The notes below the pieces were generated by a model. It was given only the letters and a program-made list of their open reading frames with translations, was not told the DNA's origin and searched no databases. Shown piece by piece: positions 4,381 through 31,635 of a stretch of 47,816 nt of DNA. The stretch's first letter is position 1. Each line of letters opens with the position of its first letter. Source of the DNA: a virus; the IMG/VR virus record IMGVR_UViG_3300025483_000019, positions 1 through 47,816 of that record. One strand, written 5' to 3'. The position numbers and the translations under genes were made by a program.

Positions 4381-4648
4381 AGACGAAAATCTTATTATGC
4401 AGGAGATTGATGATAACTTCATTGCAATTTCCAATTCAATGGGAGATATTGATCGTGCTATCAATGCAATTAACCAATGTGTAGTCAACTTAAATGAAAG
4501 GATGACTGAATTAGAAGAGCATGTTGTAAAGATTCCAACACCTGATAAGATTCTATACCAACCTGTTGGGCATGATGGTTACTTAAATATTAAAGAAAAC
4601 CTTGATCATATCTATTCATTGCTAAGGAGTTTAAAGAAAGATGCCTAG
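4373..4648 (+). CDS. Coiled-coil small protein, 91 aa
   Basis: Encodes 91 acidic residues. Residues 5-50 show a heptad pattern of Ile/Leu/Met/Val (MQEIDDNFIAISNSMGDIDR, then INAINQCVVNLNERMTELEE) and probably form a coiled coil. A short linker and a second helix (IKENLDHIYSLLRSLKK) follow. AAGGA stands directly upstream of the ATG. Its stop overlaps the ATG of the 906-residue structural gene by 8 bases, so it is translationally coupled to a virion gene. It could be a chaperone or minor component for that protein. That is inference from adjacency. Confidence 0.65.
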   Translation: MTEDENLIMQEIDDNFIAISNSMGDIDRAINAINQCVVNLNERMTELEEHVVKIPTPDKILYQPVGHDGYLNIKENLDHIYSLLRSLKKDA

Positions 4649-8522: not shown

Positions 8523-10600
8523 TGCTACCCAATAATTTAACAGCACTAGATTTTGAAGATATTAAGTCTTCTATCAAGACATATCTAAGAACTAGAGAAG
8601 AATTTTTAGATTATGATTTTGAGGGATCAGGTTTATCCTACCTTATAGATGTATTATCGTATAATACATATTATTCTTCATTCATGGCAAATATGTCTAT
8701 GAATGAAGCATTTCTGTCGTCTTCAACGGTCAGAGATAATGTTGTCAATATTGCAAAATTACTTAGTTATACACCAACTTCAATTAAGTGCTCTAAAGCA
8801 TGTGTTTCTCTGAAAGTACAAACTCAGCAGACTGGTGAATCTTATCCAAATAATATTACCCTCCAAAAAGGACCTATTGCAACAGGTGGAAATAGGACTT
8901 GGAATGCTTTGTCTCCAGTTACTGTTGAAGTAGATCAAACTACAGGAATTGCAGAATTTCTTGCAGTTACACTTAATCAGGGATCAATAATTACTTTCTC
9001 ATATCTTGTAGATAATTTTGCAAAACAGAGATATGTTATTCCTGCCGAAAGTGCAGATATGGAAACTTTATCTGTTACAGTTAGACCAAATGAAAGTAGC
9101 ACAATTAAAGATACCTATAATTTAGTTTCCAATATTACTGAAGTAAAAAGCACAAACCGAGTTTACTTTCTTTCGGAAACTGAAGATGAAAGATATGAAG
9201 TAACATTTGGTGATGGCACTATTGGAAGAAAGTTAATTGATGGAGAAGTTATTGAATTTGAATATCTTGTCACTGAGGGTAGTATTGCCAACGATACAAG
9301 CGTATTTACATTCATTGGAAAGTTTATTGATAGTAATACTGTAAATTACGCTCCCAGTGCAGCTAAACTTACTGTAAAAGAAAAAGCACAGTTTGGATCG
9401 GAAGCAGAAACCATTGAATCTGTCAAATTTAATGCTCCTCGTTATTATGCTGCACAAAATAGAGCAGTAACTACTCAGGACTATGAAACAATTGTTAAAA
9501 GATTGTATTCAAACGCAAAAACTGTTGCTGCATATGGTGGCGATGAGTTAAATCCCCCAATTTATGGAAAAGTATATATTGCTATTAAAACGAAAACTGG
9601 ATCCTCTCTTAATGATGCAACAAAGACATCCTTAAAGACTCAACTAAGATCTTATGCAATGGCGTCTATCGAACCAGTCATTGTAGATACAAATACTTTA
9701 TACATCTATCCTAGAATTTTTGCAAGTTATGATCCATCTACTGCATCTAGAGATGTTTCAAATATAACATCCAATATCCAGGATGCTGTAAATCAATATG
9801 CACAGCAAAGTGAGATTAATAACTTTAACAATAATTTCAGTCTAAGTAAATTCCAAAAAGCGGTTACCTCATCTGATCCAAACGTTGCAGATACTTCTAC
9901 TCAGATATCTTTGGTCCAATATGTGAAAGCAACTGGAAATCAGTCAAATACCTATTGTGTTTCAACTGGATCTCCTCTTCTAGATAGTGCTCCAAATTTA
10001 ACACTTACTACGGGTAGTGGTACGACAGAAAGCGAAAATACTGAGGTTGATGTAACGATTACAACTACTATTAATGAGGCTTGTAAAAAAGAACCTGTGA
10101 TTAAATCAGGTAAATTTAGACTTGCAGATAGACCAGGTATTGATCAATACTTTGAGGATGATGGATTTGGTAATTTGGTCATATATTACATTAGTGGTAA
10201 CAGAAAAGTAATTACCAATCCAAAAGGTGGTACAGTTGACTACAACTCTGGCACAATTTGTTTTGGTCCAGTAAATATCGTTGGATCTGGTGGTGATGTC
10301 CCAGATGTAAACGTTGATGGTGAAATTGACAGTCCTGAGTTAATTGTAGGGACGGACTTTAATATTGCTATCCAATCCATTCCTTCCAATCCATCAATCA
10401 TTTATACTCCAGATCCTGGATCTATTATTGAAATTATAGTCCCAACTATATCAGTTTCTCCACTTGGCACTAACCTACCTCCCACTATCCCACTAAATAG
10501 TTTGACACCCGAGATATTTGAGATAGTGCCTCCGATTATTGAAATTCCAGACATCTCAAATAATGGTAACCTTGCAAACATTTCCTGTTTTAATAGCTAA
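8522..10600 (+). CDS. 6: Baseplate wedge subunit gp6
   Basis: Encodes 692 residues (T4 gp6 is 660). It matches gp6/baseplate J-type wedge proteins, which dimerise to form the inner ring that organises wedges and drives the sheath switch. The N-terminus (LTALDFEDIKSSIKTYLRTR, then GLSYLIDVLSYNTYY and the NEAFLSSSTVRDNVV segment) is diagnostic. The middle has GDGTIGRKL and ENRAV-like TTQDYE segments (residues about 240-325), the usual J-domain pattern. The C-terminal third has acquired a perfect EF-hand-type loop (residues 595-606, DVNVDGEIDSPE) and a Pro/Ile-rich tail (about 630-692). It overlaps both gp25 and the giant gene by one base (TAATG). Confidence 0.9.
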   Translation: MLPNNLTALDFEDIKSSIKTYLRTREEFLDYDFEGSGLSYLIDVLSYNTYYSSFMANMSMNEAFLSSSTVRDNVVNIAKLLSYTPTSIKCSKACVSLKVQTQQTGESYPNNITLQKGPIATGGNRTWNALSPVTVEVDQTTGIAEFLAVTLNQGSIITFSYLVDNFAKQRYVIPAESADMETLSVTVRPNESSTIKDTYNLVSNITEVKSTNRVYFLSETEDERYEVTFGDGTIGRKLIDGEVIEFEYLVTEGSIANDTSVFTFIGKFIDSNTVNYAPSAAKLTVKEKAQFGSEAETIESVKFNAPRYYAAQNRAVTTQDYETIVKRLYSNAKTVAAYGGDELNPPIYGKVYIAIKTKTGSSLNDATKTSLKTQLRSYAMASIEPVIVDTNTLYIYPRIFASYDPSTASRDVSNITSNIQDAVNQYAQQSEINNFNNNFSLSKFQKAVTSSDPNVADTSTQISLVQYVKATGNQSNTYCVSTGSPLLDSAPNLTLTTGSGTTESENTEVDVTITTTINEACKKEPVIKSGKFRLADRPGIDQYFEDDGFGNLVIYYISGNRKVITNPKGGTVDYNSGTICFGPVNIVGSGGDVPDVNVDGEIDSPELIVGTDFNIAIQSIPSNPSIIYTPDPGSIIEIIVPTISVSPLGTNLPPTIPLNSLTPEIFEIVPPIIEIPDISNNGNLANISCFNS

Positions 10601-13600
10601 TGAAGACGACTAATAAGGTTTCTCAAGTAGTAGGTAAACAGCTTCCTCAGTTTATCGAAGATGACAATTCTCTGTTTGGTAAATTACTTGAATATTACTA
10701 CAAATCTCAAGAAAAAACAGGTTATGGGCAAAATATCCTAAATGACTTTCTTCAATATTTAAATATTGATGAATTAAATGTTGATATTCTTGGTGGTAAG
10801 ACAGTTATCGTAGAAGATGTATCTGCAACAGATACTGAAATTATTGTTGAAAATTTAGACTCGTTTTTAGATAAAAACGGAAGTGTTTTAATAAACAATG
10901 AAGTAATTTTTTATGAAGAAGGTATTCCTTCTCCTAGCGTTGCTCTAAGTCCTGGTATTTCTTATGATCAGGTAAAAATCAAATGGAATATTCTCTCCAA
11001 TCTAATTAATGACTTTGATGGAAATGAAAGAACGTTTCCTTTGCTTTCTCAACAAAGTCCAGTAACTCCTCCTTCAGCACAGCATATTATTGTTAATCTA
11101 TATGGGAGAATCTTAGTTCCTAATGTAGATTATACTATAGAGTCTAGTAATATTGTATTTGTAGATCCTCCTAGAGTAAAAGGTGTTGCTGATGATGCTG
11201 TAGATACCTCTATTATTTTCTTAGAAGGTTTTTCCGAGAATAGCATCCTTGTATTGGATGATATCTCCGAAACTTTTGGTGATAATAGAACTACATTTAA
11301 TATTACTAGAGATAGTGCTCCTTATCAACCTGTTGTTGATGAATATATCATTGCAATTTATGACGGTAATATTTTAACGCCTAAAATTGATTATACGTTT
11401 GATCTGACAACAATTACGTTTAACTTTATTCCTTTAATTGGAAGAAGATTAGACTTATTTTCAATTGAAGCACCAATTCCATCTTTTGGTACTGGTGCAA
11501 TTGGTTTTTCGCGAGTCGATGATCTCGGACAGTTGAGTTCTATTGAAATCAACAAAACTGGATCTGACTATAGATTTGAATACCCCCCAAAAGTCAGTAT
11601 CAAATCAAAACAGGGATCTAACGCAGCTGCTATTCCCCTGATTAATGGAATTAAAAATACACGACTTATTTCTGGTGGAAAGGGATATAGTACCACAAAT
11701 CCCCCTACTGTAGATATTGAAAATCCCACAAAAACTGGTGGCACAAAAGCAAAAATTTCGGTAATAGTTGTTGATGGATATGTATCTGAGTTAACAGTTG
11801 AAGATTCTGGTAGTGGATATACTTTCGTACCAAGAGTTAATTTTATTCAACCAGGTGGCGCAACAATAGCAGCACCGACTATAGTTGCTGGATCTATTAG
11901 TGGCGATGTACAAGTTACTAACAGTGGTCAGGGTTATACAACCCCACCTGCAATCTATATCGATCAACCAACTGGTGCAAACCCCATCAATGCGTCTCTG
12001 GTGACGGTTTTAGATGATGATGGATCAATTCTTCGTATTGATACGTTAAACCCTGGACAGGGATACGAAACTGTCCCTAGAGTTGCAATTATTGATCCTG
12101 TAGGAGCACAAGTTTTAGAAACTAAAGTTGATTCTGATGGTAGAGTTATTGATATTGAATTATTGAATGGTGGCAGTGGGTATGATGATGTGCCTTCAGT
12201 TTATATTGTAGATGATAGAGTCAATGATGTAGGTGCAACTATTGGTGGCACTGGTGCTAAAGCATCTGCTGCTATCTTTAATGGTCAAATTACGGATATT
12301 AATGTTACCAGTTTTGGTACTGGATATAGTCAGACAAATCCACCTAAAATTGTAATTCAATCTCCTCCAAGTGCCAGTGCTTCTGTTGAAATTGGATTGG
12401 GTGAAGTTACTGGATTTGATGTAATTAGTAAAGGATCTGGATATAGTAAGTGTAAGTTTTCTGGTTGCGCTAGAGCAGCTAGTGCAATTACAAGTTACAC
12501 TACCGAAGGAGAAGTTGTTTTCTCTGGAGAAACTACTGCAGTAGATCACAGCAAAGACTCTGAAATTAAGTGTCTAGATGAATTGTTTGTCAAGAGATTA
12601 CTTGATAAGTATACAGAGCAATATTTGCCTGATGTTCCTGCTCTCGATTATGAGAGTATTGATGTTAGGACAGCAATTAAAAATATTAAAACTTTCTATT
12701 CAACGAAAGGTACATCATTTAGTGTTTCGTATTTATTCAAACTTCTCTATGGTGAAGATGTTAGGATCTCATATCCTAAAGATCAGATTATCAAACCATC
12801 TTCTGCAACTTGGTCTGTAAATACAATCCTAAGAGCGACCTTAGAAAGTGGTGACCCCACTAAAATTAAAGATGCTTTAGTGCAGCAGTTTGAGAGTATT
12901 ACTGATCCTAATGTAAATAATGCAAGTGCTCTAGTAGAAAATTATATTTCTATTAAAACTTCTGATGTTGAAATTTTTGAATTAGTCTTATCTGAAGAAA
13001 CTATCTCAGGTAAATTTATTGTCCCTTACAAAACTAAATTGGTTGAGGGGTTAACTGAAACTACTGATGTTATTACCGTTGACTCTACAATTGGATGGCC
13101 TGAAAGAAATGGTGAATTTGTAATTGCTGGTAGTGAAGTTATTAGATATAAGGAAAAATCTTTAAACCAGTTTATCGAATGTACTAGAGGTGTTGATACC
13201 AATGCTCAAATTTGGGATGCTGCTAGTGAAGTTAAATCCAACTTTAAAATCTATCTTAATAAAGATACCATAGATGAAGTTGTACTGAATATTGTTGGTA
13301 TCGTTGATGCTCAACAAACATCTTTGTCTGATACTGGATCGTATTATCTTCCAGGCGATAAACTAACAGTTTCTAAATTAGGTGGTACTACAGTATTACC
13401 TCAGTTGACTGGTTGGTTGTATAATGTTAAAAAATTAATCGAGATCGATGGTATCAATTATGGTGGTGTTAATAATCAATCTGCAACTGTAACCTGCAAT
13501 GTACCACATGGTCTATTAGTTGGTGATCAGGTTACAATTTTTGGTGCAAACCCAATTATTTACAATGGCACCTTCCTTGTAACTTCTAGGGATTCTGCAA

Positions 13601-16600
13601 CTGTATTCCAGTATGTTTTACCTCAACCTGCAACTGTAAATCCCCAAGGAAATATTTTAATCTCTGTTGACTTGAATAAAGGTAAGTCAACAGATGTTGC
13701 TATCGAAAACATCATTTCTTTGTATACAACGAATGTACAAAATTCATTCTTTAATGCTGAATATGTTTATGTTGCATCTACAGGTATTCCTAATTATAAT
13801 ATTGGACCCTTTGTTGGATCTGCACTTCTTCCTGGCAACCAAAGGAAGTTAAATAGATTCCCACTATCAACACAGACTATTTCTACAAAAACTGAGATTA
13901 TCCCAGGATCTGTTGGTACTTGGATTAATGGTGTGTCTGTATGGTCTTACAAATCAACTGAAAAGAAAACTTTTGGTGCAGTCACTTCTATTGACATCAA
14001 AAATGCAGGATTAAACTATGATGCTGAAAGACCTCCTGTAATTACAGTTTCTGGTGGTGGTGGCACTGATGCTCAAGCAGAAGTTGTAGTTGATGGATCT
14101 CTTACTGAAATTGAAGTTACTACTGGTGGATCTAATTACACATCATCTCCTCTAGTTTCTATTGTTGGTGGAGGTGGATCTGGAGCATCTGCTACTGCTA
14201 TTGTCACTAAGGGTGCTGTATCTAGAATTCTTGTTAACAATGGTGGCATTGGATATACTTCCAAACCATCTATCACTATCGTTGGTGGAGGTGGATCTGG
14301 AGCAGAGGGCAACGCTTCTGTTAGAGGACCAGTGAAGAGTGTTTCTATCACTGATGGTGGATCCAGTTATACATCAAAACCCGAGGTTACTTTAAGTTCT
14401 GGATCTGGTGCAGTTGCTCAAGCTATTGTGACAAACGGTAGAATCATTTCTATCGCTATTATTTCTGGTGGATCTGGATATACCACTGCTCCACAAATTG
14501 CAATTTCTGGAGATGGTTTTGGTGCAATTGCAAAAGCTACAATTGATTTGGATGGCGAAAACGCTGGTAAAGTTACTAATATTGAAATCACAAATAAGGG
14601 TATTGGATATACTCAAGGATTAACTCAAATTCTTCTTACCTCAGTTGGTGATGGTGCTGTATTTGATTCTAATGTTTTTGAATGGACATATAATGTAGAA
14701 AAAACCACAGAAAAAGATTCAGCAAAAGGATTTATCTTTGAAGGTATTAATAATCAATATGGTGGAGAATATGCACACGTCTCCAACCCTCAAAGACTGA
14801 GATACATTCTTGGTGATAATTTGATTCTGAATTCAAATGATCAGATTGTTGAGCAAGAAACTCAAATCAGTCACTCTCCTATTATTGGTTGGGCATTTGA
14901 TGGAAATCCAATTTACGGACCTTATTCATATGAAGATCCTACAGATCAGGGATCAAATGTTATTAGGATGGGATCCTCTTATTCATTGAAGACCAATTTA
15001 GTTTATAATGAAGTTACAAATCCAAATCCAAGTAGAATTAATGGACCTTTATTGACGGAGGATGCTGCTGGTGATTTTGTTGATGATTATCAGTATAATT
15101 TTGGTACTGGTGATCTAGATCAATATAATGGTAGATTCTGCAAAACTCCAGATTTTCCGAATGGAAGATACTGCTATTTTGTAACCATTGATGCAACAGA
15201 GTCTGGCAATCCAGTATTCCCTTATATTCTTGGGTCTAGTTATAATGCTATTGTCGATAGTTGGAATTTAAGCACATCATCAATTCAGCAAAATATTCCT
15301 ACTGGTGTTGTACGTTATAGAGATCCATATGAAAATGTTGATATTGACGTTGAGAGGACTCCAAATGCATCTTCAAATGCCTTAACAACTGAAGATGGAT
15401 TCATTCTGTTATTTGATGCCGAAGACGAAAATCGGGACGGTGTAATTACTCAAGATGAGATTGATGATCCTGAGCAACTCTTTGAGGAGTCTCCACTACA
15501 ACTTTATGATTACTTCCCCAAGGTTAGATTTGACTCTAAGGTGGATATTGAAGTTGAAACTATTGAAAAGTTTGAAGATGCATCTGTAAGTGGTTTTATT
15601 GTTGAAAACCCAGGTATTAACTATCAGGTTAATGATATTCTAGTATTTGATAATAGTAATACTGATGGTACAGGCATTTCTGCCAGAATCTCTAAAATTA
15701 AAGGAGAACCTGTAGAGTCATATACTTATGAAACTGTTGAAAGTGTCAGTTATGGTATTTTAACAACCACAGTTCCTCATAATATTGTAAATGGAGATAA
15801 AGTCTTTATTGACTACACTCCTATCATGGATAACACCAATAAAACTTATGTTGCACGTCAATATAAGGGTATCGAAGAAATTTCGGTCACTCAAATTGGT
15901 AGTGGATACAATGTAGATATTCCTCCTGTAATTACTATTGATGGTGATGGAGAAAATGCTATTATTGAATCTAAATTAACTAATGTGGGAAGTATTTCTG
16001 AATTTGATATTATCAATTCGGGTCACGGATTTGTAAATGATCCTAGAATTATCTCATCACATCCTCAGATCTTTAAGAAGGCAAATTACTATACAACTCT
16101 ATTATCAAATAATAATTATGTTAAAATTAATGATATTGCAGTAACTGAATCTAAGGAAGTTATTCTATGTGGTAAGACTCTGAATGCTCAGGGAGATACC
16201 GTAGGTTTTGTTAGTAAAATTTCAGCACTTGGTATTAAAGAATGGGAAAAGACACTAGAGTCGATTCTTCCTGTTGGCACTACCTATATGGAGTTTGAAA
16301 AACTTCTTTTAGACGGAAACGATGTCTATGTGCTCGGTCATAATAGACCCAATCAATCAGTACAGGATTCTTATAATCCTGATGTTGTATTTGCAAAATA
16401 CACACAATCTGCTAATGGATTGGATGCAACTCTCAGTTTCCAAAAGGCATATGCAGGTATTTCTGGATCTACCCGAGCAGATAATGTAACATCTCTAATT
16501 AAACTATCTTCCGATCGTTTTGTAATCGGTGGTTTTACAAATACAAACTCTGTAAATCCTCAGGATGGATTTGTTGCAGTTTTAGATACTGCAGGCACAT

Positions 16601-22600: not shown

Positions 22601-25600
22601 TTAGAAAACTTTCTCTGACTAGAGAAGTTGGTGATGGATTCTTCTCTAGAGATCAGATTATTAGATCTGAAAATACTAAAGCCGAAATATTGGGTTATAA
22701 TCGTGCTACTAATATTCTCTACCTTGGTAAGATGGGTAGATCTAAAGCAAATGGTGAAGATTATCATGAAGCAACTTTTGTCCAAGGTGCTCAGATCAAT
22801 ACTTATAATGAGAAGTTTGGCACAGGTTGTTTAGCACTTTCTAAAGGCACTTCTCCACATACCTTTGTAAGTGGTGTTGCTGATGCAATCACTGCTGGCA
22901 GCGGAGCATCAGGTCAATTCACTGCTGCAACAGGCACGACATATGATCCTATTTCTGGACTCATGGTAATTGAGATTGGATCTCATTCTTTGACTACCTC
23001 CAATACGGTGACAATTGCAGATGATGGTATTACGTTTACTTGCGCTTCAGATAACAATACTAACAACTATGCATATCCTCGTGTTGGTGACCCTGCTTCT
23101 GGAAGCAATCTAGCTATTAGCGCAGTTACTTCCACTAAAATCACAGTTGATGTTGGTGCAGTTCCTGTAGATGAATATCTAACTATTCCTACTTCTACTG
23201 ATTTGGGATTTGATAGTAATGAGTTTACTGTAGAATGCTGGATTAAACCAAATAGTGTTGCTGCTGGTGGTAAGTCAATCTTTGATTTTAGACTCTCTAA
23301 TGGTGAGTATTCACCATATGTTTATCTCGATGGTGCAGTAGTCAAGTATTATGTAAATGGTGCTGATGTTATTGTAGGAGCGACAAGTTTGGTTGCTAAT
23401 ACTTGGTATCACGTTGCTATCTGTAAATCTGCTGGCGTTACAAAACTATTCCTAAATGGAGTGGAGCAAGGTGTCCAGTACACCGATACCAATGATTATG
23501 GAAGCACCAAACCACTTCGTATTGGTGCTGCTTGGAATGCATCTAATGTATTCCCTGGTTATATTGATGAGTTTAGAGTATCTACTACTGCTCGTTATAC
23601 TGCGGCATTTACTGCCCCCACAGGAATTAATCAGGGTGATACTAATACCGTCCTCTTACTCCACTTTGATGGTGTAAATGGTCAAGTATATACTGAAGAT
23701 TGGTCTGGTGAGCAAAACTGGACTAATGGACATGAATTTAATAATGATGCAATTCTTGCTACGAGTCGTGCTAATGCATCTTCTCCTGGAGGATTTGTTG
23801 GAAACAGTCATCGCTATTTGGATTCTGGAAAACTATTGCAATCCAATAAAGAATTCCTTGCAGAGGAAATCCGTTATCTGATTGAGCCTAACCTACCGAC
23901 TCAATTAACAACTACTGCTCCCAAATATGTTTTAAATGCTCCCGATTATAATGGATATGACTTATTCTCACATGGTGTTGCCCATGGAAACGGAAAATTT
24001 GTAATCAGTGCTCATCAAGATGATAATCCTCCTGCAGGCATCTATGACAGCGGATCGGTTTATGTCTACACTGAAGATGGCGTGTATGAGCGCACCATTA
24101 ATCCATCTGATCCAAACTCTTATGATAAGTTTGGTTATGCTGTAGCGATTGGAGGAAATAAAATTGGTGTAGGTGCTCCATACAATGATGATGGTGATAC
24201 TGATGCAGGATCTGCTTACATTTATGATCTTGATGGATCAAATGAGGTTAAAGTTACACCTTCAGATGTTGCTACAAAACTAGGTGCTAATTTTGGTTTT
24301 GTTGTTGCTATTGGATCTAGCAAATTTGTAGTTGGAGCACCAACCACAGATAGTGCTACTACCAATCCAGGATCGGTTTATGTCTATAACCTAGATGGCA
24401 CTGGTGAAGTAATCATTCAGTCTAGTGATGGTGCTTCTGGCGATTATTTTGGATACAGTGTAGCAATAGATGAGCAAAACAATAAGATCATTGTTGGTGC
24501 TCAATATGATGATGACAATGGGCAATCTTCAGGATCGGTTTATGTCTATAACCTAGATGGCACTGGTGAAGTTAAGATTAATCCTACAGATGGTGCAGCA
24601 TTCGATTTCTTTGGTAGATCTGTTGCTGCATATGATAACTTAATTGTTATTGGCGCTTGGGGAGATGATCCAGGTGGATCTGCTTATCTATATCAAAATG
24701 ATGGCACCTTTGTTACTAAAATCGTTCCTAGTGATAGTATTCTCGATGACTATTTTGGTAAAACAGTTGCAGTCAACTCTCAGGCAGTATTTGTTTCTGC
24801 ATCTGGTGGAGACGAAAGAGGTCTTTCTGGTACAGGAGCAATTTATAAGTTTGATCGTGATGGCACTAATGAAGTAAAACTTACAGAATCTAGCAGCGCA
24901 ACCAATAGTAATCTTGGTAATTATAGTCTGTTTGCAAATGATAGTTATATCCTAGCAAGCTCTCGCGATACTGTTGCAGGTCAAGTGGAAGCTGGTCGTG
25001 CATACATTTGGAAGTATGATTCTGTTGCTGGTAACTATGATTATGCACAGGAAGTTAGAAATACTATTGATAATTTAACTGACGATTTAAATAATGGAAG
25101 CAATAACCACTTGTGGGACTTTGCTGCAACCAATGTTAATAGAGATGCAACTCCAATCACAACTATTAGATTTGCTGGTGAGGAGAGTTTACAGTTACAG
25201 ACTTATCAATATGTTAATAGTTACGCACAAAATATCATTAACAATGTTTTAGTTGCTGTAACTGGTAGTCATGGATTGACCCAAACTACCGATGCTACTA
25301 TTACTGATTCTTCTTATACAACGTTAACAACATATACACCCTCTGATGCTACTTACACTGAATCATCGGGTCTTCTTGAGATAACGATTGGAAGTCACTC
25401 ACTTACCACTTCTGATAGAATTTCTATTGCTATTGATGGTATTACGTTTACTTGCGCTTCAGATAACGATACTCTCGAAATTTCTTATCCTCGTGCAACT
25501 GATCCTGCTGCAAATGCAGTATTACCAATCACTGCTGTCAGTGCTACCACAATCACCGTCAACGTTGGTGCATCTCCTGCAGATCAACAATATACTCACA

Positions 25601-28600
25601 GTTATGTAACTTCTGCTTCTAATGCTGTTACTGTCTTGAATTATACTTCTGCAGATTGTGCAGATGTCAAGACTACTATTGATAACTTGGTATCCATTGT
25701 AGAAGATACAATTTCCAATGCTACTGCAGGCACACCTGTTGATCACTTAGCAAGTGTCACTAAGGTTACACCTACTTATGAGTATCTTGGTGGAGTTGTT
25801 GATTCCTTCATTGAAGTGCCAATCACAGTTTCTCTAAATGATTCTGCAGGTAAATTACTATATACAAATCAGATTGACACTGATGCTAGAAATAGATTCA
25901 AGGATGCCGCAAATCTTATTCGCCTTAACAGATCAGCAATTGTAGATAAAGCATCTTACGATATGCTCACACGCTATCCAGATCTTGCTACAGATATGCC
26001 TAGAAATGTGGGTGGATCTAGTGATGGCACTTTAAGATGTCAGACTGATTTGGGATTAGTCTTAGATGCTATTGCTAAAGATCTTGAAGATGGTGGCAAT
26101 GAGAATACAGTTAGAGCAGGTAGATTCTATCTTGGTAATAATGATGTATTAATCCACATTAGACTCCAAGTCTGGCAGTCTGCATATGCACACCAGCGTC
26201 TTGCATTCTATTCAAAACAGGCAATTAATGGAGATTTAACTAGTGATAATACTGATAATGTAATTATTGGGGATTGGGGTATCACTGATGATGCGGTAGT
26301 TAACTTTACACCTACAGCAGCAACTTATGACGCTGGAAGTGGTGACATGGTTATTACTATTGGATCACATAGTCTTGCTTTAGGACGCCGTATTACAATC
26401 GCAGATAACGGATTTACATTCACTTGCACCTCTGATGGTAATGTTTCTCCTCAGACATACCCACGCTCATCTGACCCTGCATCTGGCGTAAACCTTGAGG
26501 TTATTGATGCTACAGCAACAACGATTACAGTTAACGTTGGTGCATCTCCTGCAGGTCAGCAATATGCACATACATTTGTAAGTGCTTCAACTAATGCAGT
26601 AAGCACAGCAGGCGATTGTGCAAATGTTGAAGATGCAATTGATACATTAGTCGATGATATTCTCAACTATATTATTTCTCCATCTGATAATGATTATCAG
26701 ATTGCTGCCGATAGACTGTATTTTAATAGAGACTATATTGGATTTGAAACCATCGGTCTTACCAAGGCAGCATATAGTTACAACTTAGGTGGATCTACTT
26801 TCAACTCCTATTCGTTTATTGGCGAAAATTCCGAAACGCAAGTTAGATCAGATCTTGAGTTTATCTTGATTTCTATTATTTCGGATCTTCAAACTGGCGG
26901 TAATAATAGTGCGATTGATTCTATTGCGGCATTCATTACCTCTCAATTGAGAGTAACTAGAATTGAAGATATTTTTGGTCAATTTATTGAATTACTCAAG
27001 CAATTCAAAGTCTTGGGAGTAAAAGCAATTCAGAATAATCTATTCGGATTTAGTGAATCGGTAACTCCACCCAATGAGTATCAAGCACAATTTAATACTA
27101 TCCCTGCATACAGAGATAGTGAATCTATCACAAGTATTAGTAGTGTAGTATCTAGATTTGAAAGTCTAATTGATAGTTTAATCGTTGTCTTTACTCCTTC
27201 AGGTGAGGTTGGAGTATCTTCTTCTAAGAATATTCTATTCAATGAGAATTATTACAAAAATGAAATTTCTTCAATTGTAAATTCTCAATTTGGTAGCGGA
27301 TCCTGGACCTTTGAGCAATTCATTGATGATCTGATCACTGATATTGAGCATGATATTATTATCACCGATACAGAGTCTTCAAATGTAACTCAAGCTCAAA
27401 GAGTTACCCTTCTTAGGGAAGGTGTTATCGATACTATTAACTTTACTAATGGAGCGGGTTATGACACCACTCCCACAGTTACAATTGATGCCCCAGGTGT
27501 TGGTGGTATTCAGGCATCTGCAGAAGCAGTGTTAAGTCCAACAGCAGTATTGACAAGTATTGATATTTCTTCTGCTGGTAGTGGTTACACTGCTAATGGC
27601 ACTTATACTTTCGCAGGATCTGGATTTGAAGGAACTCATGGTGGATACTTAGAGCAGACTAGTGGAGGGATTACCAATGTAACCTATGATGGTGAATTCA
27701 TTGATTTCCGCTCTTCTACTCCCTCAAGCAACTTTACTTTCGGTCCTGCAGCGGCGATCGTCAGCAGCGGCACTGGATCGGGATCGAATGGTGGATTTAA
27801 TCTTGCATATGAGCATGTTAAATTTGGTGCTGGCACAGGATCATATCCTCAAAGACAAGTGGCAATTAATAAGCAGTTTAATCCTTCTGCTGGTGGATTT
27901 GATACCCTCAGATTCTATGTTATTGCTGGTAATGGTAGCAACGGTGGTGAAGCTCCAGATCAAGACGAAGACCTGGCATTTTATCTTTCTATAAATAACG
28001 GTCCTTCTAATTTTGCAGGTCGTCTAGTATATGGTGGTAGCACATATGGTGGATCTAGCAATTATACTAATTTCACATCTTTAACTGCAATTGATGTGCC
28101 TCTCGGACAATCATATCAAGAAACTACTAATCTAACAGTTTCAATTGTGCAAATGGCACACAGTAGTAGTTCTAGCGATGATCACTATGCTATTACCCGA
28201 GTTTCTATGTTGAGCAGTGCTCAAGGTGGATTCCAAGAGATTGGTAATACAATCTCACTAAACTTCGGTGTAGCAGATACACAGAGTGGCACTCCAACTA
28301 CTCCTACTTTAGGATTCAATTCTTCCCGTTTTGTGCAGGAGATTAACATTCTAAACAGAGGATCGGGATATCTTCCATCTACACCTCCTAGTGCAACTAT
28401 TAGTGGTGGTAATCCAACAACAGCAGCAACAATTACTAATATTAATGTTGTCTTAGATTCTTCCAGATTTACTGCTGGCAATCTACTAATTACAGATGCT
28501 GGTGCTTCTGCTATTGTTTATGAGGATGTTGGTAATGCATTATATCTTGGTCCTGTAACGGGTACCGCGCTTGCTGCTGGTCAAACTCTGACTCAGGGTA

Positions 28601-31600
28601 GTGTTACTGCAGAGATTCCTACCAACGGAGTATCAACACAATTTGATTGGTATACCAATATTGGTAATCTCCAAACATTCAATTTTATTAGAAATATTAC
28701 ATCTCTAGTAGAAAGCGAAGGGTCTTCAACTAATTTGGTTACAAACCCAGAGACCTATGTAACCACTGGTCTGGGTCTTACATGGGCTGTAGTTGGTATG
28801 AATGCTCCAACAAATAACTATGCAATTTCTCCAGATGGCACTGAAACTGCAATTAGAATGGTACCCGATACTTCTAACGGATTTAAAGGAACCTTCAGAC
28901 AGTTATCTCTTACCTCATTCAATACCTTTGATGATGATGGCGTTAAATTTGATATCGACAGTCTATCATTTGATAATGGTCCAAATGATGAGGATTCTAC
29001 ACAACAATTTACAATTTCTTACTTTGTAAAATCTGATGGATATCGCAAGATCAGACATTACTTCAGACCTAACCCATCAACCTCAAATATCTTTATTCAG
29101 GTTGATCTCCTAACAGGAACTGTTGAGCAAACATTTGAAGTCGGACAACCTGGAGTCCTTACATTAGATGAAGTCGGTGCTATCCCATATGGAAATGGGT
29201 GGTATAGAATCTTTATTACAGGCACGTTTGGTTATGGATTCACTGAGTTAAGATCTGAAATCTCCATACTTGATGATAGTGGCAATATAGTTTTCGCTGG
29301 TGATAATACCAGTGGAATTCTCGTCTGGGGATCTAAAATCAATCAGGGTCCACTTGATGCATACACTGCAGTTGCTGGTGAGGTATTCTTCTCTAATATT
29401 GAATATAATATCAAGAAGTATTCTCTGGAGTTGCTTGAGGACTATATCGAGTTAGCACTTAATGGCAATTTGACAAATCCCGCTACAAATTCTGGATCTA
29501 TCCCATTCTTTAACTCTACCATTGCATCCAATTATAATTCAGATTCTATCCAAAGAATTGTTAGAGAAAATATTAAGATGGTTAAATCTCAACTCCTGGA
29601 TAGTGATCATTATCTAAGTGTTGAATTGATAGGAAATGTTACTATCCCTGGTAAGACTTTTGGTGAAAGAGTAATTCCTATTCCCCTTGGTGGTGGTATT
29701 GAAGGATCTGATTACTTATATGGATCTCGCAGTGATGCAAGTTCTGAAGTCCAGAAAGTTACCGTAAACGAAGGTGTGGTCGTTAAAGACTATAAGAGAT
29801 TTAGAATAACTGGTGATATCACTGCTGGTCCATTCACTATGAATGAAGTTGTGCAGAAGCAGGGTGATGCTACTATTAATGGTGTTGTTTATGGATTCTA
29901 TGAAGATGCAAATTATAAGTATGTTGATATTGCAGTTACAGGCGGCACCTGGAGTCTAGGAGATATTGTTTTGGGATCTACAAATTCCACCACTGCTCAA
30001 ATTGATCAGATTACAAATCGTCTGCAACTTATCGATATTCGTGGAGACTTTGAAGCAAATTCTGTCTTTAGAGGATATACATCAAACAGCACTGCTGCCA
30101 CTGAAATCTTCTACCAGAATGATGTTGCAGTTTTAGATAACACTGGTGGAAAACTGGTTGTTGACACTGAAACTACTAGAGGATCTTTTGAAACTACATC
30201 TGTTGTATATCCAGAAGAATCTAGACTATATCTTGAGGTCCAAAAATATGCTGGATTTGATATCGGTGTTGGTGATAGATTGGTAACAGCTGGTTACACA
30301 AGACTTGGTATCAGCATTCAAAATAATGAAAACCAGTTTGTAGTCGGAAACTTCCTTTTTAAGGTTACTGGAGGAGTCCAAGATTCCAATAACTATGGCA
30401 TTATCAATGAAGTAGATTTGCCTAATAATTACATCTATGTTGTCCCTGTGGTAGGTGGATTTAATAATGGCGATGTTGTCTCTCATTTTGATATTAGTAA
30501 TACACGTACAGGTCTTGCTACCGTCACCACCCGAATTAACTATGAAGGTCAAGCTGCTGGTCAAGTCCAGTTTATTGAAGATGTTGGACTTAATAAGAGA
30601 CTTTACATCAGTAACACTCTTGGCACATTTGCTGCTACAGATTCGATCAAGTCTTCAAATGGTTATAGGGCTGCTATCATTGAAAATGTTGAATTGAAGG
30701 CAAGAGTATCTAGATACTTCCGTGGATTTGATGGCACTCAAACAACGTTTGATCTCACTATTAATAATGGTGACTCATACTTCCCAGATCCTGCAGGTCA
30801 TATGATGATCTTCGTTAATGGTATCCTACAACCACCAGGGTCATCGCAAGCATTTACCGCATTCTCCAATAAAATTCAATTTACCGAACCTCCATCATTA
30901 GGATCTTCGTTTACAGGATTCTATGTTGGTAAACTAAGACAACTTGATGATATTTCATTCGAGTTTGATTCTTTACGCCAGTCTTTCAACCTAAGAAGAA
31001 ATGAGACTTTCTACTCATTGACTCTTACTGATGGTGTCCAATCATCAACAATCAGACCAGAAAATAATATCATTGTTTCTCTTAATGGCGTTGTCCAAGA
31101 ACCTGGAGTTGGTTTTGAAATTGTTGGTTCTAGAATTATCTTTAACGAAATTCCTCGCGTAGGATCAACATTTGTTGCATTCTCTTACGTTGGATCGGAA
31201 GCAGACGTTGACGCTGCAGTCGTTCTCCCTCCAATCGAAGCGGGTGATCGTATCGATATTCAGGGTGAGGTCAGTGATCGTGAAGTTGCTGTTATTGAAT
31301 CTTCTAACTCTTTGGTCACTTTCGATTATCTTGGATCTGTCTTCGGTAAGGGTGCAGCCGCTTCTACAACAATCACTTCGGGCACAATCCGAAACGTATC
31401 TGTAACATCACCTGGATCTGGATATACATCTAGACCAAATGTTAGAGTTGATTCTATCAGTGGTTTTGATGCACAGATCAAGGCATTGGTTGGAGTCGGA
31501 TCTATTGCTGTTAACACTGGGGGATCTGGTTATCTGAAACCCACTATCAATATCGAAACATCGGTACCTGATGATTGGGTTGCTCCAGATCTAAGTCAGT

Positions 31601-31635
31601 ATGGCGAAGAAGCGATTGATCCAGAAATAGTTTAA
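10600..31635 (+). CDS. 7: Giant modular gp7-type baseplate wedge protein, 7011 aa
   Basis: One 21-kb frame encodes 7,011 residues (about 750 kDa; T4 gp7 is 1,032). The N-terminus (QLPQFIEDDNSLFGKLLEYY) and residues 654-935 (DELFVKRLLDKYTEQYLPDV onward) are what I recognise as gp7-like. A second conserved segment is at 3466-3509 (YYYQDFSYAINSSVSIEEWK). Other modules by residue: GxGY beta-repeats at 294-620, 1126-1350, 3014-3247 and near the C-terminus; YHYH-like 1424-1545; EF-hand loop 1609-1620; propeller-like 1826-2207; LamG-like 2211-2434 and 4197-4360; FG-GAP propeller 4447-4807; three related about 90-residue repeats at 4097, 4907 and 5231; helical repeats 5087-5214 and 5361-5467; possible reelin-like 5681-5877; carbohydrate-binding-like 6041-6267; NG-loop modules 6701-6867. 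It lies between gp6 and gp8 as in T4. No stop, frameshift or intron is seen. Confidence 0.85.
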   Translation: MKTTNKVSQVVGKQLPQFIEDDNSLFGKLLEYYYKSQEKTGYGQNILNDFLQYLNIDELNVDILGGKTVIVEDVSATDTEIIVENLDSFLDKNGSVLINNEVIFYEEGIPSPSVALSPGISYDQVKIKWNILSNLINDFDGNERTFPLLSQQSPVTPPSAQHIIVNLYGRILVPNVDYTIESSNIVFVDPPRVKGVADDAVDTSIIFLEGFSENSILVLDDISETFGDNRTTFNITRDSAPYQPVVDEYIIAIYDGNILTPKIDYTFDLTTITFNFIPLIGRRLDLFSIEAPIPSFGTGAIGFSRVDDLGQLSSIEINKTGSDYRFEYPPKVSIKSKQGSNAAAIPLINGIKNTRLISGGKGYSTTNPPTVDIENPTKTGGTKAKISVIVVDGYVSELTVEDSGSGYTFVPRVNFIQPGGATIAAPTIVAGSISGDVQVTNSGQGYTTPPAIYIDQPTGANPINASLVTVLDDDGSILRIDTLNPGQGYETVPRVAIIDPVGAQVLETKVDSDGRVIDIELLNGGSGYDDVPSVYIVDDRVNDVGATIGGTGAKASAAIFNGQITDINVTSFGTGYSQTNPPKIVIQSPPSASASVEIGLGEVTGFDVISKGSGYSKCKFSGCARAASAITSYTTEGEVVFSGETTAVDHSKDSEIKCLDELFVKRLLDKYTEQYLPDVPALDYESIDVRTAIKNIKTFYSTKGTSFSVSYLFKLLYGEDVRISYPKDQIIKPSSATWSVNTILRATLESGDPTKIKDALVQQFESITDPNVNNASALVENYISIKTSDVEIFELVLSEETISGKFIVPYKTKLVEGLTETTDVITVDSTIGWPERNGEFVIAGSEVIRYKEKSLNQFIECTRGVDTNAQIWDAASEVKSNFKIYLNKDTIDEVVLNIVGIVDAQQTSLSDTGSYYLPGDKLTVSKLGGTTVLPQLTGWLYNVKKLIEIDGINYGGVNNQSATVTCNVPHGLLVGDQVTIFGANPIIYNGTFLVTSRDSATVFQYVLPQPATVNPQGNILISVDLNKGKSTDVAIENIISLYTTNVQNSFFNAEYVYVASTGIPNYNIGPFVGSALLPGNQRKLNRFPLSTQTISTKTEIIPGSVGTWINGVSVWSYKSTEKKTFGAVTSIDIKNAGLNYDAERPPVITVSGGGGTDAQAEVVVDGSLTEIEVTTGGSNYTSSPLVSIVGGGGSGASATAIVTKGAVSRILVNNGGIGYTSKPSITIVGGGGSGAEGNASVRGPVKSVSITDGGSSYTSKPEVTLSSGSGAVAQAIVTNGRIISIAIISGGSGYTTAPQIAISGDGFGAIAKATIDLDGENAGKVTNIEITNKGIGYTQGLTQILLTSVGDGAVFDSNVFEWTYNVEKTTEKDSAKGFIFEGINNQYGGEYAHVSNPQRLRYILGDNLILNSNDQIVEQETQISHSPIIGWAFDGNPIYGPYSYEDPTDQGSNVIRMGSSYSLKTNLVYNEVTNPNPSRINGPLLTEDAAGDFVDDYQYNFGTGDLDQYNGRFCKTPDFPNGRYCYFVTIDATESGNPVFPYILGSSYNAIVDSWNLSTSSIQQNIPTGVVRYRDPYENVDIDVERTPNASSNALTTEDGFILLFDAEDENRDGVITQDEIDDPEQLFEESPLQLYDYFPKVRFDSKVDIEVETIEKFEDASVSGFIVENPGINYQVNDILVFDNSNTDGTGISARISKIKGEPVESYTYETVESVSYGILTTTVPHNIVNGDKVFIDYTPIMDNTNKTYVARQYKGIEEISVTQIGSGYNVDIPPVITIDGDGENAIIESKLTNVGSISEFDIINSGHGFVNDPRIISSHPQIFKKANYYTTLLSNNNYVKINDIAVTESKEVILCGKTLNAQGDTVGFVSKISALGIKEWEKTLESILPVGTTYMEFEKLLLDGNDVYVLGHNRPNQSVQDSYNPDVVFAKYTQSANGLDATLSFQKAYAGISGSTRADNVTSLIKLSSDRFVIGGFTNTNSVNPQDGFVAVLDTAGTFVSKRKFATNTASEKVVDLLENDGDLYFLMEVADSAASNDISLVLGRASVSTTRITIESLNKVTNSVYSFIDSSFTVDEYNEFYITSTLRQKSDNATRDSFWIGKFDTAADLIWNRRYVAPSREINVVNKTAIDIFGDLNIAYTEENITTGQLSASSVKVNYKGEIVNHTTNKFNTENSTDNNIEGISAYAIDVDNSGDVYIFGQTSVNRNEFIFDFSQTDTATDKTNHYTANLQGNDATDALTFVGDGVGKLFGRDVANPSNWTNANINISGASLSNVFANNWTLEFMIYKDATNSATLSQTQQTLFSVGDATDSTGGMWMYYDMSSGRLELVVTNNGNSINSGSGALQSTQTNMFADDTWQFVSVTRSADVFTGYVNGVQIFTGSIPSTALGSKNFYIGQIAGRDGTTGTFRSNEQGQFYIDNLRLRSIAVTPTVPSDVTTLPPAASFALAYDWTDDAWFADQTSRYDYLDNVGFGLKVDKDADAVRIGDLGVLTSTDVSYERVNVTPVVGNVLTVGNVAFELGASGLQSLDYNEATTNHTDANGTTAVAIDIWSSRNATIPAPGSKKVQASAVVKNRYFFKQANTIKIDNIQRLTLNQTFNFTVGSKLLLKDGASFVNSGYITSVDAENRYVFVAVNNNVWSDDLTTGQITTERFDEQDTFGVKGPVVDDVNEIAAYVFPEVVNTTPGTFDIDLSNYDAPENIGGTNNLDEFGKFKAYGPSVYRIRILEISGTSAYIPGSVVEVTESDITFNAASSTIQITGLTAVTKIDLITDLEKIIQVTAVDNSDSVYIITGDSHYLSQGDVIYVDGNPTTQVGSVVYDEYNGSFTVDSVISAKEFTYKLKTSAVGLPATSSGSVSVFAKSPILKMYYGHQYIFDVSHSTMLGGNLSFSKDSLNKLEYSFNSIERIGTPGLTGEGQSIPSIKFKVDNSIVTNISYYFDPSRVGADSPVDPDSFLDIVTSPYIGVFTVESTSGGTITRGDDAFRFVLASEPEGNAEQINSSYTTSSEKAVGSIGDIRIINSGGFYTKLPTITGINSSRKIERVQINEPGTEYSVGTYNGVPILGNGEGGFVEIEVENTTDSEGITTPGQITSVKVTSPGKGYTTAFIDIQSIVGILGSGLSGSGADLEVVIPPFGTGASVFTKGTNVGKIKKLNNNNFGYEYPHDYTLRPEITFPINAQLINTSILESITITDPGSGYTQAPVVTLTGGGGSNAIAEATIKNGRLNTITVKDPGAGYSTEPQVELKSSFNYVINLDLGLLQFAFPHGIANGSEITLNVVDTGDGADYPVASGAIGTLNNITTYYAITGSSNSLDDDQMKIAITAENAVLGDAISYINVGVGRQQVLTSSFGGSATANVGTSIFLEGESVYQGDSLETATATGYVSSNNGWQIGSRIIKIVDYAGEFSLNQKITGTISKSSGIIGDLKIAKGVLEIGPITKTAGQFVDDVGKPSEIIQKIQDSYYYQDFSYAINSSVSIEEWKNTVIKNVHPASFKVFGQLEIQDVAEIPNKETAFQLTKSVELTRDAVVPNIQNFALVEPIYQEFDNTEVLFRQKRLTSSENILTSVVQRLDNISNLFDGERTEFPITVEGETVIANSNQLMIVLNGVVQTPEDSFEVLNDSIVFAEPPQPVALVKYVSVSIEQITTSLFTLTNTSGIFPPVGNYLVGVATAARARVVSSAGETITAFITEGTFALGELVTSSATGFSGNVVTVNDIPNIGLFRYAENIRNIDGDTAKVERINLASGQETPLADIRFNIGLNTVSFDVISITDDGSETPVESGVFEIGETYQIASEIITVTDISQGLQSTTITVDRAQLGTSSLGHLAGTPIYGTQIEVTNTLLLSKTTGTYQSTPGLFDIQLNDIIIASGSGVVAKITSTSPYQDPVTQQFVDTVEISEGSSFSGLLFNRITSQSYPNIILDNLSQSQVNIVSFDNYESNTLFNSKFPNNEIINNYTIKYISETGAFTEGEIVRNYKLEYGNNYGQFLQDDEARVRKLSLTREVGDGFFSRDQIIRSENTKAEILGYNRATNILYLGKMGRSKANGEDYHEATFVQGAQINTYNEKFGTGCLALSKGTSPHTFVSGVADAITAGSGASGQFTAATGTTYDPISGLMVIEIGSHSLTTSNTVTIADDGITFTCASDNNTNNYAYPRVGDPASGSNLAISAVTSTKITVDVGAVPVDEYLTIPTSTDLGFDSNEFTVECWIKPNSVAAGGKSIFDFRLSNGEYSPYVYLDGAVVKYYVNGADVIVGATSLVANTWYHVAICKSAGVTKLFLNGVEQGVQYTDTNDYGSTKPLRIGAAWNASNVFPGYIDEFRVSTTARYTAAFTAPTGINQGDTNTVLLLHFDGVNGQVYTEDWSGEQNWTNGHEFNNDAILATSRANASSPGGFVGNSHRYLDSGKLLQSNKEFLAEEIRYLIEPNLPTQLTTTAPKYVLNAPDYNGYDLFSHGVAHGNGKFVISAHQDDNPPAGIYDSGSVYVYTEDGVYERTINPSDPNSYDKFGYAVAIGGNKIGVGAPYNDDGDTDAGSAYIYDLDGSNEVKVTPSDVATKLGANFGFVVAIGSSKFVVGAPTTDSATTNPGSVYVYNLDGTGEVIIQSSDGASGDYFGYSVAIDEQNNKIIVGAQYDDDNGQSSGSVYVYNLDGTGEVKINPTDGAAFDFFGRSVAAYDNLIVIGAWGDDPGGSAYLYQNDGTFVTKIVPSDSILDDYFGKTVAVNSQAVFVSASGGDERGLSGTGAIYKFDRDGTNEVKLTESSSATNSNLGNYSLFANDSYILASSRDTVAGQVEAGRAYIWKYDSVAGNYDYAQEVRNTIDNLTDDLNNGSNNHLWDFAATNVNRDATPITTIRFAGEESLQLQTYQYVNSYAQNIINNVLVAVTGSHGLTQTTDATITDSSYTTLTTYTPSDATYTESSGLLEITIGSHSLTTSDRISIAIDGITFTCASDNDTLEISYPRATDPAANAVLPITAVSATTITVNVGASPADQQYTHSYVTSASNAVTVLNYTSADCADVKTTIDNLVSIVEDTISNATAGTPVDHLASVTKVTPTYEYLGGVVDSFIEVPITVSLNDSAGKLLYTNQIDTDARNRFKDAANLIRLNRSAIVDKASYDMLTRYPDLATDMPRNVGGSSDGTLRCQTDLGLVLDAIAKDLEDGGNENTVRAGRFYLGNNDVLIHIRLQVWQSAYAHQRLAFYSKQAINGDLTSDNTDNVIIGDWGITDDAVVNFTPTAATYDAGSGDMVITIGSHSLALGRRITIADNGFTFTCTSDGNVSPQTYPRSSDPASGVNLEVIDATATTITVNVGASPAGQQYAHTFVSASTNAVSTAGDCANVEDAIDTLVDDILNYIISPSDNDYQIAADRLYFNRDYIGFETIGLTKAAYSYNLGGSTFNSYSFIGENSETQVRSDLEFILISIISDLQTGGNNSAIDSIAAFITSQLRVTRIEDIFGQFIELLKQFKVLGVKAIQNNLFGFSESVTPPNEYQAQFNTIPAYRDSESITSISSVVSRFESLIDSLIVVFTPSGEVGVSSSKNILFNENYYKNEISSIVNSQFGSGSWTFEQFIDDLITDIEHDIIITDTESSNVTQAQRVTLLREGVIDTINFTNGAGYDTTPTVTIDAPGVGGIQASAEAVLSPTAVLTSIDISSAGSGYTANGTYTFAGSGFEGTHGGYLEQTSGGITNVTYDGEFIDFRSSTPSSNFTFGPAAAIVSSGTGSGSNGGFNLAYEHVKFGAGTGSYPQRQVAINKQFNPSAGGFDTLRFYVIAGNGSNGGEAPDQDEDLAFYLSINNGPSNFAGRLVYGGSTYGGSSNYTNFTSLTAIDVPLGQSYQETTNLTVSIVQMAHSSSSSDDHYAITRVSMLSSAQGGFQEIGNTISLNFGVADTQSGTPTTPTLGFNSSRFVQEINILNRGSGYLPSTPPSATISGGNPTTAATITNINVVLDSSRFTAGNLLITDAGASAIVYEDVGNALYLGPVTGTALAAGQTLTQGSVTAEIPTNGVSTQFDWYTNIGNLQTFNFIRNITSLVESEGSSTNLVTNPETYVTTGLGLTWAVVGMNAPTNNYAISPDGTETAIRMVPDTSNGFKGTFRQLSLTSFNTFDDDGVKFDIDSLSFDNGPNDEDSTQQFTISYFVKSDGYRKIRHYFRPNPSTSNIFIQVDLLTGTVEQTFEVGQPGVLTLDEVGAIPYGNGWYRIFITGTFGYGFTELRSEISILDDSGNIVFAGDNTSGILVWGSKINQGPLDAYTAVAGEVFFSNIEYNIKKYSLELLEDYIELALNGNLTNPATNSGSIPFFNSTIASNYNSDSIQRIVRENIKMVKSQLLDSDHYLSVELIGNVTIPGKTFGERVIPIPLGGGIEGSDYLYGSRSDASSEVQKVTVNEGVVVKDYKRFRITGDITAGPFTMNEVVQKQGDATINGVVYGFYEDANYKYVDIAVTGGTWSLGDIVLGSTNSTTAQIDQITNRLQLIDIRGDFEANSVFRGYTSNSTAATEIFYQNDVAVLDNTGGKLVVDTETTRGSFETTSVVYPEESRLYLEVQKYAGFDIGVGDRLVTAGYTRLGISIQNNENQFVVGNFLFKVTGGVQDSNNYGIINEVDLPNNYIYVVPVVGGFNNGDVVSHFDISNTRTGLATVTTRINYEGQAAGQVQFIEDVGLNKRLYISNTLGTFAATDSIKSSNGYRAAIIENVELKARVSRYFRGFDGTQTTFDLTINNGDSYFPDPAGHMMIFVNGILQPPGSSQAFTAFSNKIQFTEPPSLGSSFTGFYVGKLRQLDDISFEFDSLRQSFNLRRNETFYSLTLTDGVQSSTIRPENNIIVSLNGVVQEPGVGFEIVGSRIIFNEIPRVGSTFVAFSYVGSEADVDAAVVLPPIEAGDRIDIQGEVSDREVAVIESSNSLVTFDYLGSVFGKGAAASTTITSGTIRNVSVTSPGSGYTSRPNVRVDSISGFDAQIKALVGVGSIAVNTGGSGYLKPTINIETSVPDDWVAPDLSQYGEEAIDPEIV
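14164..14304 (+). repeat. Exact 24-bp intragenic repeat, 39-codon period
   Basis: GTTGGTGGAGGTGGATCTGG plus AGCA occurs at 14164-14187 and again at 14281-14304, 117 bases apart, so one GxGY unit here is 39 codons. It lies in the second GxGY block of the giant gene and shows recent unit duplication or gene conversion. Confidence 0.75.
22905..26590 (+). repeat. Three dispersed copies of a ~90-residue module
   Basis: Within the giant gene, segments at about 22905-23175, 25335-25615 and 26300-26590 each encode a unit with IGSHSL, TFTCxSD, a YPRxxDPA element and a TxITVxVGA end. Copies 1 and 2 share an exact 34-bp stretch (23022-23055 and 25434-25467), so part of the duplication is recent. Copies 2 and 3 also share a following helical segment with LVDxI/LVSIV. 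Confidence 0.7.
24368..24572 (+). repeat. Exact 43-bp repeats in the FG-GAP blades
   Basis: A 43-base sequence starting CAGGATCGGTTTATGTC is identical at 24368-24410 and 24530-24572, 162 bases (54 codons) apart. A shorter 17-base match is at 24052-24068. Each encodes the GSVYVYNLDGTGE strand of a propeller blade. Confidence 0.8.

Follow-up and report, generated by a model that had tools for sequence, protein, structure and literature searches.

A 7,011-residue gp7-type wedge protein with a small conserved frame and very large insertions in a marine cyanomyovirus

The window, the whole stretch of DNA analysed here, is a linear virus fragment of 47,816 bases from IMG/VR. Genes for a 906-aa wedge protein (phrog_719) and a PAAR protein are followed by gp25 (8103..8522, plus strand; phrog_261) and gp6 (8522..10600, plus strand; phrog_219 and Pfam gp6 domains). 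Downstream of gp6, a single ATG-started frame on the plus strand (10600..31635) runs for 7,011 aa without an internal stop; its start codon overlaps the gp6 stop codon (TAATG), and the encoded protein has a computed mass of 752.8 kDa and a pI of 4.4. Next come a gp9/gp10-type connector gene (an N-terminal-domain gene; 31665..32891, plus strand; PF07880, phrog_677), a wedge-region gene for a 1,389-aa YHYH protein (32895..37064), gp8 (37116..38648, plus strand; PF09215, E 1e-19) and a gene for a 2,521-aa DUF4815 protein (from 38648). The first-pass annotation had placed the giant frame between gp6 and gp8. This holds on the gp6 side, but the connector and YHYH genes precede gp8, which does not adjoin the frame. 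The order gp25-gp6-gp7, with gp7 directly after gp6 in the wedge operon, is found in the window and in its relatives.

The motif ATAAATA, the core of T4/S-PM2-type late promoters (PMC2984593), occurs at 8067, 31640 and 37073, in the short gaps before gp25, the connector gene and gp8, a placement that fits a single late transcript for gp25-gp6-gp7. Three occurrences in 296 intergenic bases have a probability of 4e-5, with the gaps picked post hoc, and window-wide the motif is not enriched (9 found, 20.5 expected). Neither tandem DNA repeats nor tRNAs were found in the window, and all seven wedge proteins or pieces scanned against NCBIfam were without a match.

Some modules recur among the neighbouring genes. 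Residues 215-295 of gp8 form a GxGY-type module homologous to residues 3044-3138 of the giant protein (E 8e-11), and GxGY modules also occur in the 906-, 1,389- and 2,521-aa wedge-region ORFs; these sequence matches suggest that the module has spread inside one operon. The YHYH domains of the 1,389-aa protein and the giant protein are related (51% over residues 1491-1545 of the latter).

A full-length ortholog of 7,006 aa, 85% identical from end to end, is encoded in an independent metagenomic contig (IMGVR_UViG_3300020365_000050; L024+L103). Between the two proteins, dN/dS is 0.07-0.33 in all 350-aa bins, with dS about 0.4-0.8; purifying selection in every bin, including the last, indicates protein-level constraint along the whole 7,011 aa. 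Isolate phages have orthologs of 6,026-7,312 aa at the gp7 locus. Together, the metagenomic ortholog, the dN/dS values and the isolate orthologs indicate that the frame is neither a chance frame nor an assembly artefact. A still longer gp7, of 7,860 aa, occurs in IMGVR_UViG_3300035157_000888 (L027+L129). The uninterrupted frame of about 21 kb and 7,011 residues reported in the first-pass annotation is thus confirmed by the ORF call, the 85%-identical ortholog and dN/dS. The length of 1,032 residues given there for T4 gp7 agrees with the sequence, and the figure of 4.5 MDa for six copies is arithmetically right (6 x 752.8 kDa), the copy number of six per baseplate being borrowed from T4 (PMC3004832). 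The entire T4 baseplate is ~6 MDa (PMC10329688).

The giant protein is identified as gp7, a wedge subunit, and the virus as a marine cyanomyovirus (Kyanoviridae-like). BLASTP against short gp7s of other phages gives three colinear segments, about 1-104, 664-807 and 3434-3528. The N-terminal helical segment (residues 1-75; 10600..10824, plus strand) is probably the equivalent of the T4 gp7 helical domain 643-689. The direct match between the two is weak (2 bits); residues 1-75 match Melnitz gp7 10-119 (BLASTP E 1e-7), and phiM7 6-122 corresponds to T4 gp7 640-758 (E 7e-6), which links the N-terminal helices to T4.

Two signature blocks are also shared with T4: block 1 (FYSTKG..S..YLFK.LYGE.V.I.YP; residues 655-735, 12562..12804, plus strand, with the stretch colinear with T4 at 687-739) is equivalent to T4 733-758, and block 2 (DSYYYQDFSY...HPASF, with HPvGF in the general gp7 signature; residues 3458-3509, 20971..21126, plus strand) to T4 ~865-890. 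Block HMMs, built from cyanophage giants alone and searched against 1,705 six-frame ORFs, both recover the gp7s of four Straboviridae (T4, LemonAid, PSTCR6 and D6b), at E 4e-9 to 7e-10 for block 1 (T4 3.7e-9) and E 2e-5 to 5e-4 for block 2 (T4 2.4e-5). Short gp7s are recovered as well, with the blocks in the correct order (block 2 C-terminal to block 1), and no other protein among the 1,705 ORFs matches either HMM below E 0.2. No second ORF with both blocks was found in the window or the reference loci.

Profile and fold searches against known structures also return gp7. A short-gp7 profile has gp7 as its best match in the PDB, over three colinear stretches, and a cyanophage N-terminal profile places gp7 first (hmmsearch, E 7.6e-5), the next, unrelated match being at 0.23. 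For the AlphaFold model of residues 1-1000 (42 sequences; mean pLDDT 72.7, low in block 1 and the N-terminal helices), gp7 is the sole Foldseek match below 1e-3 (E 7.7e-5). Residues 736-909 (12805..13326, plus strand), with a nested beta barrel at 808-882, have the fold of domain V by Foldseek and VIA-align; in T4 gp7 this domain is PF21427, 766-861. They align with gp7 763-851 at VIA-align Z 8.6/8.1 (87 residues, rmsd 4.4), and, a Z near 8 being middling by itself, the domain V call leans on order and top rank.

Synteny, the two blocks, the domain V fold and the comparison with short gp7s thus place the protein in the gp7 family. The three segments picked out by eye as gp7-like in the first-pass annotation (1-75, 654-935 and 3466-3509) prove accurate in the light of BLASTP colinearity and of the domain V fold at 736-909, and in the search against gp7 families that it proposed, the N-terminal residues and 664-807 do match gp7s. 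Its description of a gp7-type wedge protein with many grafted modules likewise stands, on synteny, the two signature blocks, the domain V fold and the existence of insert-free short gp7s.

Pfam models are less informative for this family. PF23786 (Baseplate_wedge) is matched in two halves, at 17.1 bits (profile 176-221) and 13.5 bits (235-278), both below the 27-bit curated cut-off, and assignment to this model was dropped; T4 gp7 itself has no PF23786 match at E <= 0.01. For domain VI (PF21456), a Pfam scan of residues 3001-7011 at E <= 0.1 was negative; short gp7s also lack a match, so domain VI is not general to gp7. The weak Pfam matches MtmB, Phycobilisome, I-TevI and Pneumo_M2 were below cut-off and discarded. 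All seven pieces of the giant protein match phrog_701 (profile 3-6135 of 6136), with several stretches within 4000-5150. This gp7 family is labelled only as virion protein and filed under 'head and packaging', and the GxGY repeats match the 'head closure Hc2' family phrog_460, a name that the HTVC008M gp7 ortholog (L010 4436-7486) bears in RefSeq; a cascade of annotation errors is likely. The protein that follows gp6 in Campylobacter CP81 was rejected as a further relative, as it has no match to the window and a weak HPVGF motif only.

The gp7 frame (N-terminal helices, block 1, domain V and block 2) comprises fewer than 500 residues, and three additions at fixed points of the frame account for the size of the giant protein. 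Insertion 1 (residues 76-640, ~565 aa; 10825..12519, plus strand), placed by BLASTP colinearity, contains two beta modules and GxGY repeats; AlphaFold pLDDT is ~90 across most of it, and it is largely missing from the P-SSM2 and S-SSM7 types. Insertion 2 (residues 910-3457, ~2,550 aa; 13327..20970, plus strand) separates domain V from block 2, and the C-terminal extension (residues 3510-7011, ~3,500 aa; 21127..31632, plus strand) follows block 2.

Residue counts upstream of block 1, in the spacer that separates the motifs of blocks 1 and 2, and downstream of the second motif are 190/80/13 in LIMEstone, 733/150/148 in T4, 90/334/57 in ACP17, 195/464/236 in Melnitz, 190/1,877/977 in S-CAM3, 215/2,423/1,807 in P-HM1 and 698/2,796/3,516 in the window gp7. 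Proteins at the gp7 locus have 284 aa in Dickeya LIMEstone, 482 in Acidovorax ACP17, 503 in Mendera, 896 in Melnitz, 1,006 in phiM7, 1,016 in HTVC008M, 1,032 in T4 and 1,937-7,312 in cyanophages. A core wedge protein thus spans 284 to more than 7,000 residues, with growth at fixed joints and a conserved frame.

The additions contain several recognisable domains, all encoded on the plus strand. Insertion 2 includes a YHYH domain (residues 1364-1533; 14689..15198; PF14240, E 9e-30) and a first LamG-like domain (2269-2411; 17404..17832; PF13385, E 4e-7). The C-terminal extension has a second LamG-like domain (4191-4332; 23170..23595; PF13385, E 4e-23), located in a hypervariable part, and six FG-GAP repeats (4445-4807; 23932..25020), which were identified as internal repeats and by PF14312 (E 2e-59, 6 stretches); a PDB sequence search with the FG-GAP block found nothing at E 0.01. 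Further on, residues 6037-6259 (28708..29376) form a CBM-type jelly roll, for which VIA-align gives Z 19.0 with Pa193 (9b45_1) and 17.0 with E217 (8env_K), followed by CBM61/16/29/4 at Z 10-12; by sequence, they match only the GTA head spike fibre (E 1e-7) and Sf11 gp17 (E 1e-5). Near-invariant modules (6691-6915; 30670..31344; 72-95% identity across the group) lie close to the C-terminus. Repeated modules are dispersed along the chain: GxGY beta repeats occur at 300-640, 1125-1340, 3150-3295 and 6877-6980, a second module at 131-192, 218-274, 3573-3635, 6707-6773 and 6779-6853, and a third in three copies starting at 4111, 4918 and 5239. The model of residues 6001-7011 has a low mean confidence (61), and the conserved residues 6700-7011 are mostly below pLDDT 50; thus, no fold is claimed there.

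Conservation is uneven along the protein. Comparison with six relatives shows conservation in the gp7 frame and in residues 910-1930, 2700-4050 and 6691-7011, weaker conservation in 1931-2700 and hypervariability, with modules gained and lost, in 4050-6300. The FG-GAP block is missing from S-RIM4, Syn9 and S-WAM1 (0-1% identity), and the second LamG-like domain is only 60% identical even to that of the 85%-identical 7,006-aa relative. Among isolate records, 478 match the first 1,000 residues, 290 of them across at least 80% of these residues. In S-SSM7 (L015 4062-23156), gp7 is split between a 3,007-aa and a 3,001-aa ORF, which flank an ORF of 340 aa. Both halves bear the annotation gp7, and the 3,001-aa one has homology to the C-terminal extension. 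The existence of the C-terminal part as a gene of its own indicates that the extension acts as a separable module and that its fusion to gp7 is not required.

Orthologs of the giant gp7 are found in virions. In CsCl-purified S-SZBM1 virions, S-SZBM1_208 (6,619 aa, 724 kDa) was identified from 71 peptides at 13.5% coverage, the top coverage for any protein in that study being 43.7% (PMC9146016, Table 1 for S-SZBM1_208). Its gene lies directly after gp6, and the protein aligns with the window gp7 over 7-2293, 2712-3988 and 6351-7007 at 41-44% identity. The 1,937-aa ortholog S-CREM2 ORF122 yielded 91 unique peptides at 27.2% coverage (PMC10665884). Its gp7 blocks are at 182-236 and 1873-1922, and its ~527 covered residues exceed its gp7 frame, so insert residues are present in the virion. 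As judged by these two orthologs, the giant gp7 is a virion structural protein. The first-pass annotation had computed its mass estimate for a protein expressed whole; the 71 peptides of the ortholog strongly support this, although digest peptides do not give intact size. The finding that it named as contrary to its reading, proteomics showing a short N-terminal part only, is contradicted by the S-SZBM1_208 peptides.

The same data bear on what is made from the frame. That only a short N-terminal gp7 is produced, the remainder being untranslated or non-functional, is scarcely credible: nothing was found in its support, purifying selection reaches the last bin, and the 894 residues covered by the 71 peptides of the 6,619-aa ortholog require a product of about 2,045 residues even at 43.7% coverage, which excludes a short one. 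Cleavage after assembly is possible because the proteomics was done on digests. These data, and the two separate genes of S-SSM7, would be compatible with a polyprotein from which a protease releases a gp7 wedge part plus one or more fibre-like products with an assembly path of their own. Such a polyprotein is nevertheless unlikely, since Pfam finds no autoprocessing domain (intramolecular chaperone or peptidase) at E up to 0.1, or at E up to 0.5 in four rescanned stretches, and residues 6691-6915 rank with the best-conserved stretches, as would be expected of a structure-anchored part. The repeat-rich, beta-rich and adhesin-like content, and the annotation 'putative fiber' in Syn9 (NC_008296), would suit a long tail fibre whose gene merely chances to follow gp6. 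Such a coincidence is very improbable given that the chain has the two gp7 blocks and domain V in the expected order and that the two-block signature occurs in no other ORF of the window or reference loci.

As to their role, the additions might be mainly scaffolding, a load-bearing structural skirt that widens and stiffens the baseplate and holds fibres and the gp8/gp9 neighbours, with separate fibres recognising the host. Residues 910-1930, 2701-3457 and 3510-4050 are conserved (58-84% identity to group members other than S-WAM1), the inserted sequence is rich in beta repeats, the GxGY modules common to gp8 (215-295) and the 1,389-, 906- and 2,521-aa neighbours would fit a mutually packed baseplate, and other large fibre genes are present in cyanophages. 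This reading is possible but doubtful, because the hypervariability of 4050-6300, its module gain and loss, and its LamG, FG-GAP and CBM-type folds form a pattern typical of host-contact parts.

The giant protein is therefore best regarded as a gp7 wedge subunit whose small frame carries huge insertions that probably form a host-contacting arm or skirt. The gp7 frame would plug into the wedge beside gp6, as in T4, and the inserted and C-terminal chains would most likely lie at the baseplate rim. Such an arm may consist of conserved beta-repeat scaffolding and exchangeable heads resembling sugar- or protein-binding domains (LamG, FG-GAP and CBM-type jelly roll) in 4050-6300, and would be closed by the conserved C-terminal modules 6691-6915. 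The variable modules may touch the cyanobacterial surface and relay a signal to the wedge (gp6/gp7). In T4, gp7 is the attachment site of gp9 and gp10, and its A domain swivels ~45 degrees in the switch (PMC3004832), so that additions to gp7 are well placed for contact sensing.

T4-like cyanophages count among the ocean's most abundant viruses. Little is known of how they recognise hosts, since T4 fibre genes have no homologs in them; cyanomyoviruses are reported to lack homologs of g10, g11, g12, g34, g35 and g37 (PMC2984593). A host-sensing or adhesive role for the giant gp7 is plausible in view of its LamG, FG-GAP and CBM-like jelly roll domains, its hypervariable middle and the missing T4 fibre genes (PMC2984593), and the protein may do covalently the job of T4 gp10-gp11-gp12 and the long fibres. 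Glycan or receptor binding is putative, as deduced from folds and families alone; LamG, YHYH and FG-GAP folds can be structural instead of adhesive, and cyanophages carry other large fibre genes, such as S-CREM2 ORF85 (4,971 aa, without detectable homology to the C-terminal extension). The mapped frame and insertion points provide a concrete candidate for the cyanophage recognition device, in which residues about 4050-6300 are those that should vary with host, and they also permit clean constructs for structural work. Mutations from S-TIM4 experimental evolution, mainly in tail-fibre and baseplate genes, were not used as evidence, as gp7 is not named in the text.

More tentatively, gp7 could be a general mounting frame that takes up thousands of residues at its C-terminus and where domain V meets block 2, making receptor-binding heads covalent with the wedge. 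If so, host contact would pass straight to the contraction trigger, with neither gp10-gp11-gp12 nor long fibres as separate modules, and 4.5 MDa, some three quarters of what a whole T4 baseplate weighs, would come from one exchangeable protein.

The novelty implied by the first-pass annotation is not borne out: GenBank has contained giant gp7s for years (for example, P-SSM4 gp7, 7,312 aa), and the window protein is a newly added member of a known family. In the literature searched, no description of the insertion-point anatomy of giant gp7 was found, and one may exist elsewhere. The giant cyanophage gp7s (phrog_701), which include those of S-WAM1 (6,737 aa), Syn9 (gp101, 6,076 aa) and S-RIM4 (6,026 aa) besides P-SSM4 gp7 and S-SZBM1_208 (6,619 aa), share the locus, frame and module order of the window gp7, and those of S-RIM4, Syn9 and P-SSM4 are 62-65% identical to it over long N-terminal stretches; they differ from it in the module content of the middle (4050-6300). 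S-CREM2 (L345 1060-15975) has a separate 4,971-aa virion protein, ORF85, called a long tail fibre and identified from 286 unique peptides. The idea that the C-terminal extension is a fused long tail fibre of this 4,971-aa type was rejected, there being no BLASTP match at E 1e-3.

Among non-cyanophage T4-like phages, gp7 is highly divergent (Sullivan et al. 2010, PMC3037559). The minimal gp7s of Ackermannviridae (LIMEstone ORF162, 284 aa, PF23786) and those of ACP17 and Mendera (482/503 aa) have blocks 1 and 2 and lie after gp6 but lack nearly all of the additions, with only 15 residues between the blocks in LIMEstone. A different kind of likeness is found in E217 gp45/Pa193 gp46, a single-copy triplex subunit whose residues 186-389 fold like window gp7 6037-6259 (Z 17-19); the matched chain appears to be gp45/gp46, judging from its 500/503 modelled residues. 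This is a fibre-carrying wedge subunit (PMC10329688, PMC11042391), although in E217 and Pa193 the fibre is a separate protein. T4 gp7 (PDB 5IV5, 5HX2) and Klebsiella phage gp7 (9F4A) likewise follow gp6 and share with the window protein the succession block 1, domain V, block 2, probably preceded by an equivalent helical segment. However, T4 gp7 carries ~640 residues ahead of the frame, has block 2 almost directly after domain V and continues for ~150 residues beyond, whereas the window gp7 has ~565, ~2,550 and ~3,500 residues added within and after the frame.
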